Shown: positions 3,483 to 14,605 of the stretch, piece by piece
Numbering within the stretch: position 1 is the stretch's first letter
Layout: every line of letters begins with the position of its first letter
Assembly: GCA_005881995.1 (NCBI GenBank)
Contig: VBHV01000619.1
Location: 1 to 14,605 of the forward strand
Source: Chloroflexota bacterium
Lineage (GTDB): Bacteria > Chloroflexota > Ktedonobacteria > Ktedonobacterales > Ktedonobacteraceae
Reading direction: 5' to 3'
Length of the DNA: 14,605 nucleotides
The notes under the pieces: generated by a model
What the model was told of the DNA's origin: nothing
Database searches by the model: none
What the model saw: only the letters and a program-made list of their open reading frames with translations
Translations under genes and position numbers: made by a program

Positions 3483-4124
3483 ATGTTTATCCTGAGTGAC
3501 GCGCTTGCTCCATGGGGGCAGGCAGCAGCTATTATCCTGGCAATCTATACGTTCATCAATATCCTGGTCGGCCTGGCATTCGCGGCAGCCCTTATGTTTG
3601 GCTTCGCCTGGATACGCCAGAAGGCCGAATTGATCAAAAAATTGCGGCCGATGGTCGATAGTGTGAATAAAGCAATTGAAGCTCCAGAAAGCGCTGCTCC
3701 TCTTCAAGAGCCTCAGCACAAGCTCGTTCAGGTCGTCCATAAGGTGCAATCATTAGAGATACCACAGAAGATCGAGGGGGTGGATCACCAGGTTCACGGC
3801 GTTGAGCAGAAGATCGATCAAGGCGCCGACCGCGTAGCAGAGGCGGTGATTGAGTTTCGCGCACGTACCGTGATGGCGAAGACAATAGTCAAAGCCTTTT
3901 TCTTGCCCGGCCTGACGAAGCCAAAACGCCAACTCTCCTTAATGGAAGTACACGGTTTTGAGGGGGCGGTGAACAGGGACGGGATGGGTCCTCAATACTT
4001 GCCAGCAGAATCTTCGGGAGCTGTAGTTGCCCGGTCAACGCTATCTGACGGGGTTGAGGATGCACAGATTCAGGAGAGAGAGCCTGCGGGGGCCAGGCGG
4101 GCTGACAATGCACCTCCTCGTTGA
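3483..4124 (+). CDS. Second membrane-anchored coiled-coil protein, unknown function
   Basis: 213 aa. One long hydrophobic stretch (about residues 13-45) is followed by a basic stop-transfer (WIRQKAELIKKLRP) and a predicted helical/coiled-coil region (about 48-125; repeated motifs VQSLEIPQKIEGVDHQVHGV and EQKIDQGADRVAEAV). The tail from about residue 150 is low in hydrophobicity and Gly/Ala/Arg rich. Same general plan as the preceding protein: membrane anchor plus cytoplasmic amphipathic helix. ATG 2 nt after the previous stop with GGAGGAGAAT in the end of that gene implies translational coupling. Its last 17 nt overlap the transporter's start, so the three genes form one transcription unit. 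No family name can be given with confidence. Confidence 0.75.
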   Translation: MFILSDALAPWGQAAAIILAIYTFINILVGLAFAAALMFGFAWIRQKAELIKKLRPMVDSVNKAIEAPESAAPLQEPQHKLVQVVHKVQSLEIPQKIEGVDHQVHGVEQKIDQGADRVAEAVIEFRARTVMAKTIVKAFFLPGLTKPKRQLSLMEVHGFEGAVNRDGMGPQYLPAESSGAVVARSTLSDGVEDAQIQEREPAGARRADNAPPR

Positions 4125-5601
4125 GTATGCGTGGCAGTTTGGGCGTTTCCAGCGCAATGCTCGTCTCTATCTGATAAATAATGCCCTGAGCGGTATGACC
4201 GCGGGCATTCTCCTGGTGCTTTACAATCTCTATCTTATCTCGCTGGGTTACGGGCCTGATTTTGTTGGACTCGTGCTGTTCGTGGGTACAATCGGGGCAG
4301 GCATCGCCATCTTTCCGGCGGGTCTCTGCGTTGATCGTTTCAGCGGGAAAGTCATCCTCATCTGGTCGAACCTGCTGATTGGCCTGGCGGGTCTAGGCCA
4401 GATTCTTTTTCGCCAGCCTATTCCACTGCTGATAAGCGGCTTCATCGTGGGCGTTGGCCTGGCTTTTACGCTGGTCATCAATGCCCCCTTTCTAACGTTC
4501 AATAGCTCCCCCGAAGAACGTTCGCATCTTTTTAGCATGAACATTTCGCTAGGGCTGGTGACGCTGGTATCAGGTGAGGTACTTGGCGGGGCCTTACCGG
4601 GCTGGTTTCGCACAATTCCCTGGTTGATGGCTCCTCTCCCATCGTGGGTACCCCCCATATTGGCGAACCAACCTGATCCACGTGCCTATCAACTGGCTCT
4701 GCTCTTTGCAGGGATCATCGCTGGCCCAAGTCTTATCCCTTTGTTTATGTTGAGGAATGATCGGCCTCGTAGGAATGGTGATACAGTCTCCCCCAGGTCT
4801 GTAGGGGCGAGGGAGGAAGGGATGAGGGGAGAGGGCCTTTATGGTCGCCCGCCAAACTTAGAGACCGAGGACGGGCGACCACAAGGGCCCTCCCCTCACC
4901 CCTCGTCCGCCCTCGCCCCTACGGAATTGAGGGAGACTGTATCAGAAGCCGATGAGAGGGCGACCGCAAGGGTCCCCACCCTACCCCGCCCTACTCCCGC
5001 CCTTACAAAGATGACGAACGTGAAGGCGACGCTCAACGCTTCCAGTATGAGGAAGTTAGTGGGCAGTCGCTTCTTTTTTCTGGCGCTGGTGTATGTGCTG
5101 ACGGGGTTGGGGGCGGGTCTGTTTATTCCTTATTTCAATATCTTTTTTGTGCAGCATTTGAGGGCTTCTCCCGCACTTTTTGGGGTGATTGATGGGGGAG
5201 CGAATGCTACGACTGCGCTCTTCACGCTGGCCGCTCCGTGGTTAGCTGCGCGCATTGGCAGAATTCGCGCGATTGCTTTGACGCGCCTGGTGAGTATTCC
5301 CCTGCTGCTGACAATCGGGTTGACGAGTTATTTACCGCTAGCCGCCCTGCTGTATCCATTCCGCCAGGCAACGATGGATATGAGTGCTGGCGTTTTGCAG
5401 GTCTACTCGATGGAGGTGGTGCCGGAGCGATATCGCGGCCTGGCAAACAGCAGTTACCAGGCTGCTTTTCAAGTTCCCTGGGCCATTACCGCTTCTCTTG
5501 GCGGCTTGATTATTGTGCATCTTGGCTATCCTCCGCTTTTCCTGCTGGCGGCGTGCTGCTACATTCTGACGATTGTTATATTACTGTTTCGCCAGCTGTA
5601 A
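4108..5601 (+). CDS. Major facilitator superfamily transporter with palindrome-encoded central loop
   Basis: 497 aa from ATG 4108. I prefer this start to the TTG at 4027 (27 residues longer) because GGCGGG lies 7 nt upstream and MHLLVEYAWQFGRFQRNARLYL is a typical MFS N-terminus. About 12 hydrophobic helices form two six-helix halves. The first half includes LYLINNALSGMTAGILLVLY and GFIVGVGLAFTLVINAPF. The loop between helices 2 and 3 has the MFS motif-A relative GLCVDRFSGK. The C-terminal half starts at SRFFFLALVYVLTGLGAGLF and includes APWLAARIGRIRAIA, the second motif-A-like loop. The substrate is unknown. The cytoplasmic loop joining the halves is very long (about residues 220-305), Pro/Arg/Glu rich, and residues 224-279 are encoded by a large inverted repeat (see that entry), so much of the loop looks inserted. 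The gene overlaps the upstream gene by 17 nt. Confidence 0.88.
   Translation: MHLLVEYAWQFGRFQRNARLYLINNALSGMTAGILLVLYNLYLISLGYGPDFVGLVLFVGTIGAGIAIFPAGLCVDRFSGKVILIWSNLLIGLAGLGQILFRQPIPLLISGFIVGVGLAFTLVINAPFLTFNSSPEERSHLFSMNISLGLVTLVSGEVLGGALPGWFRTIPWLMAPLPSWVPPILANQPDPRAYQLALLFAGIIAGPSLIPLFMLRNDRPRRNGDTVSPRSVGAREEGMRGEGLYGRPPNLETEDGRPQGPSPHPSSALAPTELRETVSEADERATARVPTLPRPTPALTKMTNVKATLNASSMRKLVGSRFFFLALVYVLTGLGAGLFIPYFNIFFVQHLRASPALFGVIDGGANATTALFTLAAPWLAARIGRIRAIALTRLVSIPLLLTIGLTSYLPLAALLYPFRQATMDMSAGVLQVYSMEVVPERYRGLANSSYQAAFQVPWAITASLGGLIIVHLGYPPLFLLAACCYILTIVILLFRQL
4779..4944. repeat. 166-bp palindromic element (MITE/REP-like) inside the transporter gene
   Basis: Two arms of about 72-73 nt are separated by a 20-nt centre (4852-4871). 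Outer ends: TGATACAGTCTCCC left (4779-4792), its exact reverse complement right (4931-4944). Inner matching blocks: GTAGGGGCGAGGG (4801 onwards) with CCCTCGCCCCTAC; TGAGGGGAG with CTCCCCTCA; GGTCGCCCG (4843-4851) with CGGGCGACC (4872-4880). The arms differ at only a handful of positions plus small indels. There is no transposase and I see no clear target duplication. The transporter frame stays open right through it. This is the structure of a short palindromic mobile repeat or MITE. No known family is asserted. Confidence 0.9.
4957..5006. repeat. Diverged partial copy of the palindrome's right arm
   Basis: GGGCGACCGCAAGGGTCCCC... runs parallel to the right-arm sequence GGGCGACCACAAGGGCCC... 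(from 4873), through C-rich blocks to CCCTTAC versus CCCCTAC about 50 nt later. It starts 12 nt after the palindrome ends, in direct orientation and in frame in the transporter. It looks like a decayed second insertion or a partial tandem duplication. Confidence 0.6.
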
Positions 5602-10090: not shown

Positions 10091-11572
10091 ATGGGTGATG
10101 AATGGCAAGAGGGTCCTGATGCCACATCAGACAGGCCCCCTCAGTACTCACAAGACGATTTAGATAAACGCATCGAAGAGATTCGGCGTAAAGTTATAGA
10201 AGGCACCAGCGAAGCACAACAGCGTATCAAACGTGTCGTTGATAGAGCGGGGGGGTACTGGCAGCAATCGAATACCTCGTTACAAGCGCGCCAGGCGAAC
10301 AGTGTAGAAGAGGAACGTATTCGCCACCTGGCCAATTCATGGAGCCTGGGCAACTGGCAGCTTGCGCGCGAACTTGGCACCTATATGGACCTCGTTTCGT
10401 GGGCCGAAGACGAGGTATGGGAGATCACTCTACAGTCGCGCTGGGAGACGCGCACAATGGAAGTCATCTCCGAACCTTATAGCGGTCGTCCTGTTGGAAA
10501 AGTGCAGCCGTTATTGCCTGTATGGGATTATGAACTGCCCCCCGTCACCGGTTTGAAAGCTCCCGAGAGCCGCACTCGCCTTACAGGGCAGGAAGAGGTA
10601 TTTGCCTGCACCGCCTGTAACAGCACCGGGCGTCTGCTCTGCGCCTCCTGTAGCGGGCGCGGCTGGGTTGTCTGCCCGGACTGCAAAGGGCGCACGCGCC
10701 TGCGCTGCACCACGTGTCGTGGTCGGGGCTACGTCGCCGACTGGCAAGACGCGAAAAAGAAATCGTTTTTCCAGAAGCGTGCCGAAAATCTGACCGATTC
10801 GGTCACGAATAAGGTCTCCGACCTGTTCGAAGGCATGCGCCAGCAGGGTGTGCCTGTCTCCAATCCCATGGATGCTGACCCTGCTAGCAAGGGGCGTACT
10901 GTTCCCTGCCCGGACTGCGTTAATGGCGAGGTCGATTGCACCTGTGGCACGGGTAAGCGCGTCTGCGAGAATTGCCAGGGCTCAAAAACTGAGATTTGTT
11001 CCCACTGCGGTGGCACAGGCAAAGTAGTACGTCATCGCGAGATTGTACGGCGTTTCGACCTGAGCACACAGACGCAGATTGTTGGGGCGACAGCTATTCC
11101 TGAGCAGCGCCTGGCGAAAGCGAGTGGGGACCTGGTCTATAACGCCGAGGTCAACGAAACGCTCTATCCAGATGCCGCTCCCGAAAGTGTGCCGATGGAT
11201 GTATGGAGCGCCGCCGTCCAGTTGGCGCAAAACGTCACCGCTGGTGAGCGCACAACCAACCCGCGTGAGCAGTCGCGAGCCAGCTTACAGGTGTTGGAGT
11301 TAACGCGCATCCCCTATACCAAAGTGGATTATCGCTATGGAGACCAGGACTATGTCTTCTACATCTACGACGTGGATGGAAAAGAGAAGTTTTATGCTGA
11401 CCGCTATCCCGCTCGCTGGGATCGCGTCGAGCGCCTCTTCCGCTCCATCACCAACGACCTGATGGCTCCCGCCCAGGGCACCGCGCAGGCCAATGCGGCT
11501 GGCGATCAGGTACGCGGCTATCGCGTGCCCGTTGAGAAGCCACCCTACTCGATTACTGAAGAAGAGGAATAG
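10091..11572 (+). CDS. SSUH2-like protein with two cysteine-rich (DnaJ-type) zinc clusters, no J domain
   Basis: 493 aa, soluble. Residues 1-75: charged, predicted helical. About 100-170: beta-rich segment with RWETRTMEV and VWDYELPPVTGLKAPESR. Cluster 1 (173-213): four CxxC units (C173, C184, C195, C206) spaced exactly 11 residues apart, two with the full CxxCxGxG form (CASCSGRG, CTTCRGRG). Linker 214-270, basic then polar. Cluster 2 (273-311): CPDC, CTCGTG (one cysteine pair compressed), CENC, CSHCGGTG. C-terminal domain (about 315-465): IPEQRLAKASGDLVYN, ELTRIPYTKVDYRY and DYVFYIYDVDGKEKFYADRYP. The order (WD-x-PP entry, cysteine clusters, then 'leucine-lysine-alkaline' tail with YxYxxxxYVxYIYxxD) matches what I remember of animal SSUH2 proteins, not DnaJ, which would need an N-terminal HPD domain. 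Role unknown; zinc binding and protein binding are likely. ATG with GGGAGG about 9 nt upstream; ends at a strong terminator. Confidence 0.82.
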   Translation: MGDEWQEGPDATSDRPPQYSQDDLDKRIEEIRRKVIEGTSEAQQRIKRVVDRAGGYWQQSNTSLQARQANSVEEERIRHLANSWSLGNWQLARELGTYMDLVSWAEDEVWEITLQSRWETRTMEVISEPYSGRPVGKVQPLLPVWDYELPPVTGLKAPESRTRLTGQEEVFACTACNSTGRLLCASCSGRGWVVCPDCKGRTRLRCTTCRGRGYVADWQDAKKKSFFQKRAENLTDSVTNKVSDLFEGMRQQGVPVSNPMDADPASKGRTVPCPDCVNGEVDCTCGTGKRVCENCQGSKTEICSHCGGTGKVVRHREIVRRFDLSTQTQIVGATAIPEQRLAKASGDLVYNAEVNETLYPDAAPESVPMDVWSAAVQLAQNVTAGERTTNPREQSRASLQVLELTRIPYTKVDYRYGDQDYVFYIYDVDGKEKFYADRYPARWDRVERLFRSITNDLMAPAQGTAQANAAGDQVRGYRVPVEKPPYSITEEEE

Positions 11573-11577
11573 ATTGA

Positions 11578-11625
11578 CGGTATAAAAAATCCCCGCAACA
11601 AGCGTTGCGGGGATTTTTTATACCG
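11578..11625. terminator. Perfect intrinsic terminator after the SSUH2-like gene
   Basis: Two 22-nt arms pair without mismatch (CGGTATAAAAAATCCCCGCAAC with its complement) around loop AAGC. The GC core CCCCGCAAC/GTTGCGGGG is followed by TTTTTT on the plus strand and flanked by AAAAAA on the other side, so it can terminate in both directions. It starts 5 nt after the stop and ends 25 nt before the adenosine deaminase ATG I favour. Confidence 0.93.
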
Positions 11626-11650
11626 ACTCATGATGAAAGGAAATTCGACC

Positions 11651-13133: not shown

Positions 13134-13431
13134 TCTTCTCGTGAAATGGGGAAGACAAATGGAAATTGTGACGAACCTTGGGCCAAACATTTTTTATCTC
13201 GACGCCTTTTTGATAGAGGCAACAAAGTAGAGGAAGAATATGCTGTTACCTTTTTTCTTTCGTCCTGGAAGCGTTATCTCGATGAACATGATTTCGTAGG
13301 GGAAGTATACTGATAAGTAAATAGGAGCTGCTAGCGCTGTCGGTGATGGGGTCAGCATAGCGAAACTTGCTTTCTGTACGCTAAAAATAGGACGCGAAGA
13401 TTCTCCGACAGGTTTCTCCGGCACACTCCTC

Positions 13432-13453
13432 TCTTTTGTACGCAGAAAAGCTC
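13432..13453 (+). repeat. Direct repeat copy 2 (TCTTTTGTAC...GCTC)
   Basis: TCTTTTGTAC-GC-AGAAA-A-GCTC, in the same direction as copy 1, 320 nt later and about 285 nt upstream of the regulator's start codon. Together with the CTTTTGTAC at 12812 these sit at intervals of about 300 nt. Confidence 0.45.
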
Positions 13454-13596
13454 GAAGTACTTGCATTGCTCGATTCAACTTGTCAGAGGATGGCTCTTCT
13501 CCGTCAAACATGCTCCGACCAGTTGACGACAGACTGCACACGCATTTTCGAAACGTTCATGTTGAGAGCGTCTCTCCCATCTTTGTCATTATCTTC

Positions 13597-13640
13597 CCTG
13601 ACTTGCAATGGCGTTAGGGAACAGGTATACTCCTGTCAGG
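13597..13640 (+). promoter_or_regulatory. Promoter for the LuxR/MalT-type regulator, -10 box in a palindrome
   Basis: -35 TTGCAA (13603-13608, 4/6) and -10 TATACT (13626-13631, 5/6) with an exact 17-nt spacer; start near 13638 gives a leader of about 80 nt to ATG 13718. The -10 box is the centre of ACAGGTATACTCCTGT (13621-13636), and an outer pair CCTGAC/GTCAGG (13597-13602, 13635-13640) brackets the promoter. This nested symmetry suggests an operator, possibly for autoregulation. Confidence 0.5.
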
Positions 13641-13717
13641 AACATCTCTTCTGTTACATCGTGTGCGGTCACCATCGTCAGGAAACCGTGTGTTGGCTGA
13701 TCGACAAGGGGGATGCT

Positions 13718-14605
13718 ATGCCCAAGGCCAAAGCAAAGCTGAGTTGGTCTGCCGCTCTCGAGATCTATATCTTGTCCGAGCCACACAGCGGGGAGGACCG
13801 CTCCATTACGCCGGAGAGTCCCGCCTGGTTTGCCTGGCTGGCCGAGCGGTCTTCCTTTGCTTTTCAGGGTCAGCAGGGCTCCTTCAGCGCCCTGCTGGAA
13901 GCCGTGCAGCGTGGGGAGCGCTACTGGTATGCGTACCTGCGCACGGGCCAGCAAGTGCGCAAGAAGTATCTGGGCAAGACCGCTGATCTGACCCTCGCCC
14001 GGCTCGAGCAGGTCGCACGGGTGCTGCAGACGGAGCGGGCCGGCGCCGTCTTGCCCGACACCGTGCTTCCCACGCGAAAGGCTCACCATGAGCCGGTGCG
14101 CACACCCCAGGTCGTCACCCCTACGCCTGCGCAGAAAGCGATGGACGGGCCTGCACCAGTCGTCGTGGGGCACACCGCTACGGCCACTGCCATGCCCGCT
14201 CAGCCGCTCCTGTCCACCAAGCTCTACGTGCCTCGACTCCCTGCCCGGCTGGTGCCCCGCTCCCGCCTGATCGAGCGTCTGCGGCAGGGGCTCGCCGAGT
14301 GTGGGGTGCCCGCCGTCTGGCTCTCCCTCGATGCTGAGGAGAACGACCCGCAGCACTTCCTCTCCACCCTGCTGGCCGCCTTCCAGACCCGTGATCCCTC
14401 GATTGGGGCCAGTGTCCAGGCGCACCTCTCCTCGCCACATGGTCTGCAAGGCCTCTCCCTCTCGGCTGTCTTCACACAGCTGATCAACGACCTGACCAGC
14501 CGCACCAGTGGCGAGTTCCTCCTGGTGCTGGACGACTACCACACCATCACGCTTGAGCCTCTCCAGCACGCCATCGCCCAGCTTTTGGAGCACTGCCCAC
14601 CCCAG
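13718..14605 (+). CDS. LuxR/MalT-type STAND ATPase regulator, partial, Walker A loop missing
   Basis: 296 codons visible; the gene runs off the right edge, so the expected TPR-like and LuxR helix-turn-helix domains are not seen. ATG 13718 has AGGGGG 6 nt upstream. N-terminal module (about 35-105): SPAWFAWLAERSSFAFQGQQ then GERYWYAYLRTGQQVRKKYL and ADLTLARLEQVA, typical of Ktedonobacteria regulators. Proline-rich linker 110-162. STAND region: PLLSTKLYVPRLPARLVPRS (163-182), RLIERLRQG-LAECGVPAVWLSLDAEENDPQHFL, and Walker B EFLLVLDDYHTI (266-277). Relatives carry a segment of the type LTLVSAPAGFGKTTLL (P-loop) between RLRQG and the LAEC-G-VAW-SL strand; here those parts are joined directly at about residues 189-193, so about 23 residues are absent, in frame. 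Such a protein could not bind ATP normally. GC content is clearly higher than in the preceding kilobase. Confidence 0.82.
   Translation, partial: MPKAKAKLSWSAALEIYILSEPHSGEDRSITPESPAWFAWLAERSSFAFQGQQGSFSALLEAVQRGERYWYAYLRTGQQVRKKYLGKTADLTLARLEQVARVLQTERAGAVLPDTVLPTRKAHHEPVRTPQVVTPTPAQKAMDGPAPVVVGHTATATAMPAQPLLSTKLYVPRLPARLVPRSRLIERLRQGLAECGVPAVWLSLDAEENDPQHFLSTLLAAFQTRDPSIGASVQAHLSSPHGLQGLSLSAVFTQLINDLTSRTSGEFLLVLDDYHTITLEPLQHAIAQLLEHCPPQ

Follow-up and report, generated by a model that had tools for sequence, protein, structure and literature searches.

In Rickettsia, palindromic elements have reportedly been captured in frame as protein sequence at tolerant sites, as described by Ogata et al. 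In other bacteria, GTAG-tagged REPs of 20–40 bp are tied to RAYT transposases, as REPtrons (Di Nocera et al. 2013, PMC3733652). That report already records intragenic GTAG-REPs, the TruB genes of several other bacteria being among the carriers, and equates RPE-4 and RPE-6 with CGTC repeats and not with GTAG repeats. Coding palindromes are also known from mitochondrial genes of Nematomorpha (PMC6649704).

In this study, we analyse a palindrome contained in a transporter gene of a soil bacterium of the Ktedonobacteraceae. We are confident, short of certainty, that the feature is a head-to-head dimer of GTAG-type REP units accompanied by a single third unit, inserted without loss of frame into an MFS protein's linker. 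This degree of confidence applies to the explanation as a whole, including the probable spread of the repeat by RAYT, its survival in the linker and its remodelling through the hairpin.

Results

A palindrome within the open frame of an MFS transporter

The window, that is, the whole stretch of 14,605 nucleotides analysed (contig VBHV01000619.1), contains an MFS transporter gene (Table 1) whose reading frame matches Pfam MFS_1 with an E-value of 1.4e-25; a search of solved structures with the window protein also gave MFS transporters among the matches. The longest open frame starts from a TTG at 4027, and the start was placed at the ATG by homology, the M being invariant there in the homologue alignment. 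In MFS proteins generally, the loop that joins the two halves is cytoplasmic. In the model of the window protein (mean pLDDT 70), residues 220–309, numbered from nt 4105, have values under 50 and are bordered on each side by a set of six long helices, so the predicted structure agrees with the original prediction that the insert occupies the loop joining the two six-helix halves.

The inverted repeat lies where it had been located, with arms at 4779–4851 and 4872–4944 that are 20 nt apart and 81% complementary without gaps, and the MFS frame reads through it. Among the six frames of 4779–4944, the coding one alone is free of stops. Folding of the RNA bore out the very stable mRNA stem that had been proposed: the segment reaches −129.7 kcal/mol, compared with a mean of −66.4 for dinucleotide shuffles (sd 4.0; n=200; z −15.7), and none of the 200 shuffles attains its stability. 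As for the extent of the element, the palindrome does occupy 4779–4944, but the repeat-derived stretch continues to 5006 with a third unit. A comparison with Rfam families yielded 35 matches at E≤1, nearly all of them eukaryotic microRNA hairpins and each far under its gathering score, which were discarded.

Two other places in the window may be mentioned. At 11578–11625, two perfectly matched 22-bp arms enclose a 4-nt loop, with a run of T in the stem; this inverted repeat, situated between an open frame ending at 11572 and an adenosine-deaminase-like gene starting at 11630, resembles a terminator. At 13391–14605, an open frame runs off the end of the window, with no Pfam match from 13565 on.

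Table 1. Positions in the window of the transporter gene, its linker and the repeat-derived segments.
Feature	Position	Strand	Evidence
MFS transporter gene	4108..5601	+	ORF list; Pfam MFS_1; homologue alignment; structure model; PDB matches
Codons of the disordered linker between the six-helix halves	4762..5031	+	Residues 220–309; pLDDT <50; sole length-variable stretch in 121 homologues, residues 2–492
Left outer arm TGATACAGTCTCCC, beyond the REP end; probably host 4931–4944 copied in inverted orientation	4779..4792	+	Locus search; P0002 and P0003 peptides
Left GTAG-type REP unit, 50 nt, read as VGAREEGMRGEGLYGRP	4801..4850	+	82% to nearest dispersed unit; shuffles at most 26.5 matches
Spacer of the head-to-head dimer (hairpin loop)	4851..4872	.	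Inverted-repeat layout
Right GTAG-type REP unit, 50 nt, inverted, read as GRPQGPSPHPSSALAPT	4873..4922	-	82% to nearest dispersed unit; shuffles at most 29.5 matches
Right outer arm GGGAGACTGTATCA, probably host linker sequence	4931..4944	+	Orthologue peptide comparison
Third REP unit, 49 nt, degenerate tag GTAA, other frame, read as RATARVPTLPRPTPALT	4958..5006	-	Core motif; dispersed-unit match

The palindrome is made of REP units dispersed in related genomes

The palindrome is a head-to-head pair of GTAG-type REP units, after which a third unit follows. The core GGGCGACCRYAARGG is present in three copies in the window, at 4836–4850 (minus strand), 4873–4887 (plus) and 4958–4972 (plus), where 0.13 would be expected by chance. 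The ends of the repeat are marked by GTAG at 4801–4804 and CTAC at 4919–4922, and the GTAG-type REP design is recognised, with GTAG at 4801 and, inverted, at 4922, and a GGGCG/CGCCC stem in the folds of the units. Shuffled versions of the window units share at most 29.5 matching positions with dispersed units. The third unit is 88% identical to the one at L216:686, which lies beside the RAYT gene of genome G001, and to one further unit. All three units (4801–5006) carry a G-quadruplex motif on the GTAG strand; the idea of a role for it was abandoned, the motif being no commoner in the long units of relatives than in shuffles (4 of 19 in G001, 3.7 expected; 4 of 9 in G003, 3.2 expected; 0 of 2 in G007, 0.1 expected).

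Related Ktedonobacteria genomes contain dispersed units of the design GTAGGGGCG[A/G]...GGTCGCCC. Among the loci examined, 40 of 42 distinct units of 44–56 nt measure 49–51 nt. Short units of 25–34 nt occur in loci of relatives too, and for this reason the long form, of about 50 nt, is best regarded as a variant. With the 166-bp segment as query, matches at E≤1e-3 were obtained in 6 of the 29 family genomes; the core motif was detected in 13 of the 47 genomes from the order, with a maximum of 183 matches in one genome; the reversed motif, used as a control, gave at most 1 per strand per genome. In a first search of five genomes, G002, G004 and G005 had nothing better than E 0.7. The repeat thus has many copies in relatives, which takes away, for those genomes, the possibility that no other copies exist. 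The proposal of a dispersed palindromic repeat that became coding sequence within the transporter loop stands.

Association with RAYT genes

A search of 47 genomes with the NF047646 profile at E≤1e-10 identified 23 RAYT loci in 13 genomes, with the curated cut-off passed in 4 genomes. The repeat is present on both sides of the gene at four of these loci (in G001, G029, G003 and G034) and absent within the stretch examined at the remaining 19. All four flanked genes match Y1_Tnp, one of them under the cut-off, and that of G001 is the only one of the four to pass the RAYT cut-off. This last gene is bracketed by the repeat at L216:686–734 and L216:1342–1390, and L216 is a REPtron of Ktedonobacteria. 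Five repeat-bearing genomes (G007, G035, G028, G015 and G008) had zero RAYT matches at E≤1e-10. The long REP family has probably been spread by RAYT (REP-associated tyrosine transposase), and it is from sequence associations of this kind that we infer its mobilisation.

REP insertions recur at the linker

Homologues were sought among about 5.8 billion proteins; 7998 candidates were scored and 724 relatives retained, of which the best 120, with the window protein, make up the set of 121 used here. The linker varies from 28 to 157 aa in this set, and each segment of 22–30 aa outside it (residues 2–492) is constant in length within 2 aa (sd 0–0.18). At E≤1e-3, 55 of the 121 linkers match translated dispersed REPs and 66 have no such match; the corresponding controls gave 3 (reversed), 2 (shuffled), 0 (pieces of the N-terminal half) and 6 (linkers against non-REP DNA). 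The translated pool was taken from the REP DNA of relatives minus the MFS loci and 12 in-frame loci, which left 134 of 149 segments. The contrast is weaker by cluster than by sequence: under single linkage at 85% identity, 5 of 11 clusters have a REP match, whereas each of three controls gives 2; one cluster holds 76 sequences.

In the copies that matched, every frame of one strand serves to read the core (10, 12 and 8 linkers), and of the other strand mainly two (16, 1 and 12 linkers); the frame that turns GTAG into a TAG stop accounts for one linker. When the presence of REP peptides, scored with six peptide patterns devised here (43 of 121 positive), was placed on a quick maximum-likelihood tree built with the linker left out, in which 30 of 111 inner branches are weakly supported, at least 19 changes were required. 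Linkers differ even between very close proteins. The window protein and P0002 are identical outside the linker and have linkers of 98 and 126 aa respectively, the longer one containing a tandem duplication. Another pair identical outside the linker, P0026 and P0044, has linkers of 105 and 64 aa. The closest orthologues' linkers were compared as protein sequence. In two of the three nearest orthologues examined, those of G001 and G028, the linker is 23 aa long and without the repeat, in line with the proposed capture; the third, from G007, has a linker of 46 aa with a possible degenerate repeat. A protein search with the linker only, which was word-based and of low sensitivity, retrieved P0001–P0004 alone at E≤10 among 129 candidates and thus gave no sign of spread to other proteins. 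Judging from the alignment and the tree, relatives have gained and lost REP insertions at the linker many times, with the rest of the protein constant in length.

In-frame copies in other genes

The transporter is not the only gene with an in-frame copy. In G007, in-frame copies of the core are present within TruB, a MurT-type ligase, a DUF1385 protein and an Eco57I-type methylase; a further one is read upstream of the SLT domain of a lytic transglycosylase. In TruB (L160:1224–2258), a short GTAG-REP lies in frame with a 21-aa insert relative to most relatives; none of the 25 other genomes whose alignment spans the site has the insert, and 2 more genomes do not cover it. Because REPs have been recorded in TruB genes of other bacteria (PMC3733652), TruB may be a repeated target of REPs. 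The case of DUF1385 (L165), where the REP peptide is also in frame, is weaker than that of TruB, the site being a variable linker in relatives too. A core in frame in an NB-ARC protein (L166) shows no evident insert, may be due to chance and was left out of the count. In G001, the core is found inside an anti-sigma-factor-like protein without Pfam hit (L182:1209–2438); two or three segments of its linker appear to derive from REPs. A mechanical scan of stretches of G007, G001 and G003 placed 34 of 79 motif clusters in some open frame that extends for 40 codons or more in both directions; most of these frames need not be genes, and we rely on those with Pfam support.

Outer arms and alternative explanations

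The original prediction spoke of a MITE/REP-like element. The repeat is indeed a dispersed REP, but the description as a MITE ending in TGATACAGTCTCCC did not hold, since the REP boundaries fall inside the arms. A single insertion of a MITE, moved by another type of transposase and having TGATACAGTCTCCC as terminal inverted repeats, would account for the exact complementarity of the outer 14 nt and for a length of 166 bp, which is MITE-like. However, the first 13 letters of TGATACAGTCTCCC occur in none of the 297 loci examined, many of which carry the repeat, dispersed units start at GTAG, and P0003 has the right-end peptide RETVSEADE while the left-end peptide is missing, all of which makes a MITE highly improbable. 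Judged from the protein sequence of relatives, the outer arms are most simply read as host linker sequence that lies on the right and has been copied, inverted, onto the left side through a template switch in the hairpin; the left-end peptide of P0002, DTVSLNSVGAR, is the exact translation of the reverse complement of the right arm in the window.

Assembly errors are common at long palindromes, and an assembly artefact, or a palindrome arisen by chance, might also be considered. We give almost no credence to either, in view of the stability of the fold (z −15.7), of the 82–88% identity between window units and dispersed units and of the near-identical linkers of P0001, P0002 and P0003, each of which stands for a cluster (3, 10 and 3 sequences respectively) with a different longest contig. 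A selected function, in which the mRNA stem slows translation between the halves or the transporter is under the control of the linker peptide, is attractive in that a very stable stem lies exactly between the two halves of the transporter. Nevertheless, presence and length of the insert differ among orthologues that are otherwise identical or nearly so, different frames are used, and a 23-aa linker suffices in G001 and G028. Such turnover makes a function of the hairpin unlikely; the gain and loss of inserts among near-identical orthologues speak against a conserved role, and the chances of a selected function are in our opinion slim. We prefer tolerance of a captured REP to function, because the presence of the insert is not conserved among near-identical orthologues.

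Discussion

How could a palindrome of this stability persist inside a coding sequence? A REP spread by RAYT would insert across the genome and, within the MFS gene, the only insertions to survive would be those that fall in the disordered linker and keep the frame open. The GC-rich units contain few stops, and in the linker nearly every length is tolerated, which would explain their survival there, presumably as neutral sequence. Once inserted, the palindrome might be reshaped by hairpin-linked copying, slippage, deletion and template switching, and the outcomes would include tandem duplication, a changed spacer and an inverted copy of the host flank. A more speculative proposal, which we consider rather improbable, is that the linker is a fast-evolving REP landing site kept open by selection, where repeated capture indifferent to frame provides variation in length and charge, or a translational pause, between the halves of the transporter. 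If true, a parasitic palindrome would be a source of new protein segments.

The 121 orthologous linkers represent a dense natural series of the capture of a mobile palindrome as protein, in which insertion, choice of frame, tandem duplication, inverted copying of the flank and loss can be followed. They also make the distinction between tolerated and used REP insertions directly testable, and they extend intragenic REPs to Ktedonobacteria, with a link to RAYT there. In the open-access literature, outside which most subscription papers lie, the papers listed on palindromic repeats in Ktedonobacter, on RAYT in Chloroflexi, on palindromic elements sharing one site and on palindromic-repeat insertions in the MFS interdomain loop included no report of such a case.

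The analogy with the palindromic elements of Rickettsia, put forward in the original prediction, is sound in idea: both are palindromes inserted in frame in protein genes, a likeness of principle and not of compared sequence. The mitochondrial palindromes of Nematomorpha resemble the one studied here in being long and translated within a protein gene, but their arms encode conserved regions of the protein, whereas the arms in the window encode a variable disordered linker and derive from a dispersed repeat. The closest likeness is to the GTAG-REPs of PMC3733652: an unpaired GTAG, a GC-rich stem, head-to-head dimers, clusters, repeats flanking RAYT (here in relatives), in-frame copies in genes and TruB among the targets. 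Compared with those 20–40 bp elements, the window units are longer (50, 50 and 49 nt) and have a long G-rich middle, the hosts are Ktedonobacteria, and many independent-looking events affect one linker of one orthologous gene. The Ktedonobacteria unit is likened by general design to the 24 REP families given in that source. Since intragenic REPs are known as such, the window case is a variant of a known phenomenon; what is new is the long GTAG-REP unit of Ktedonobacteria, together with a transporter linker that acts as a recurrent and fast-turning-over REP sink.
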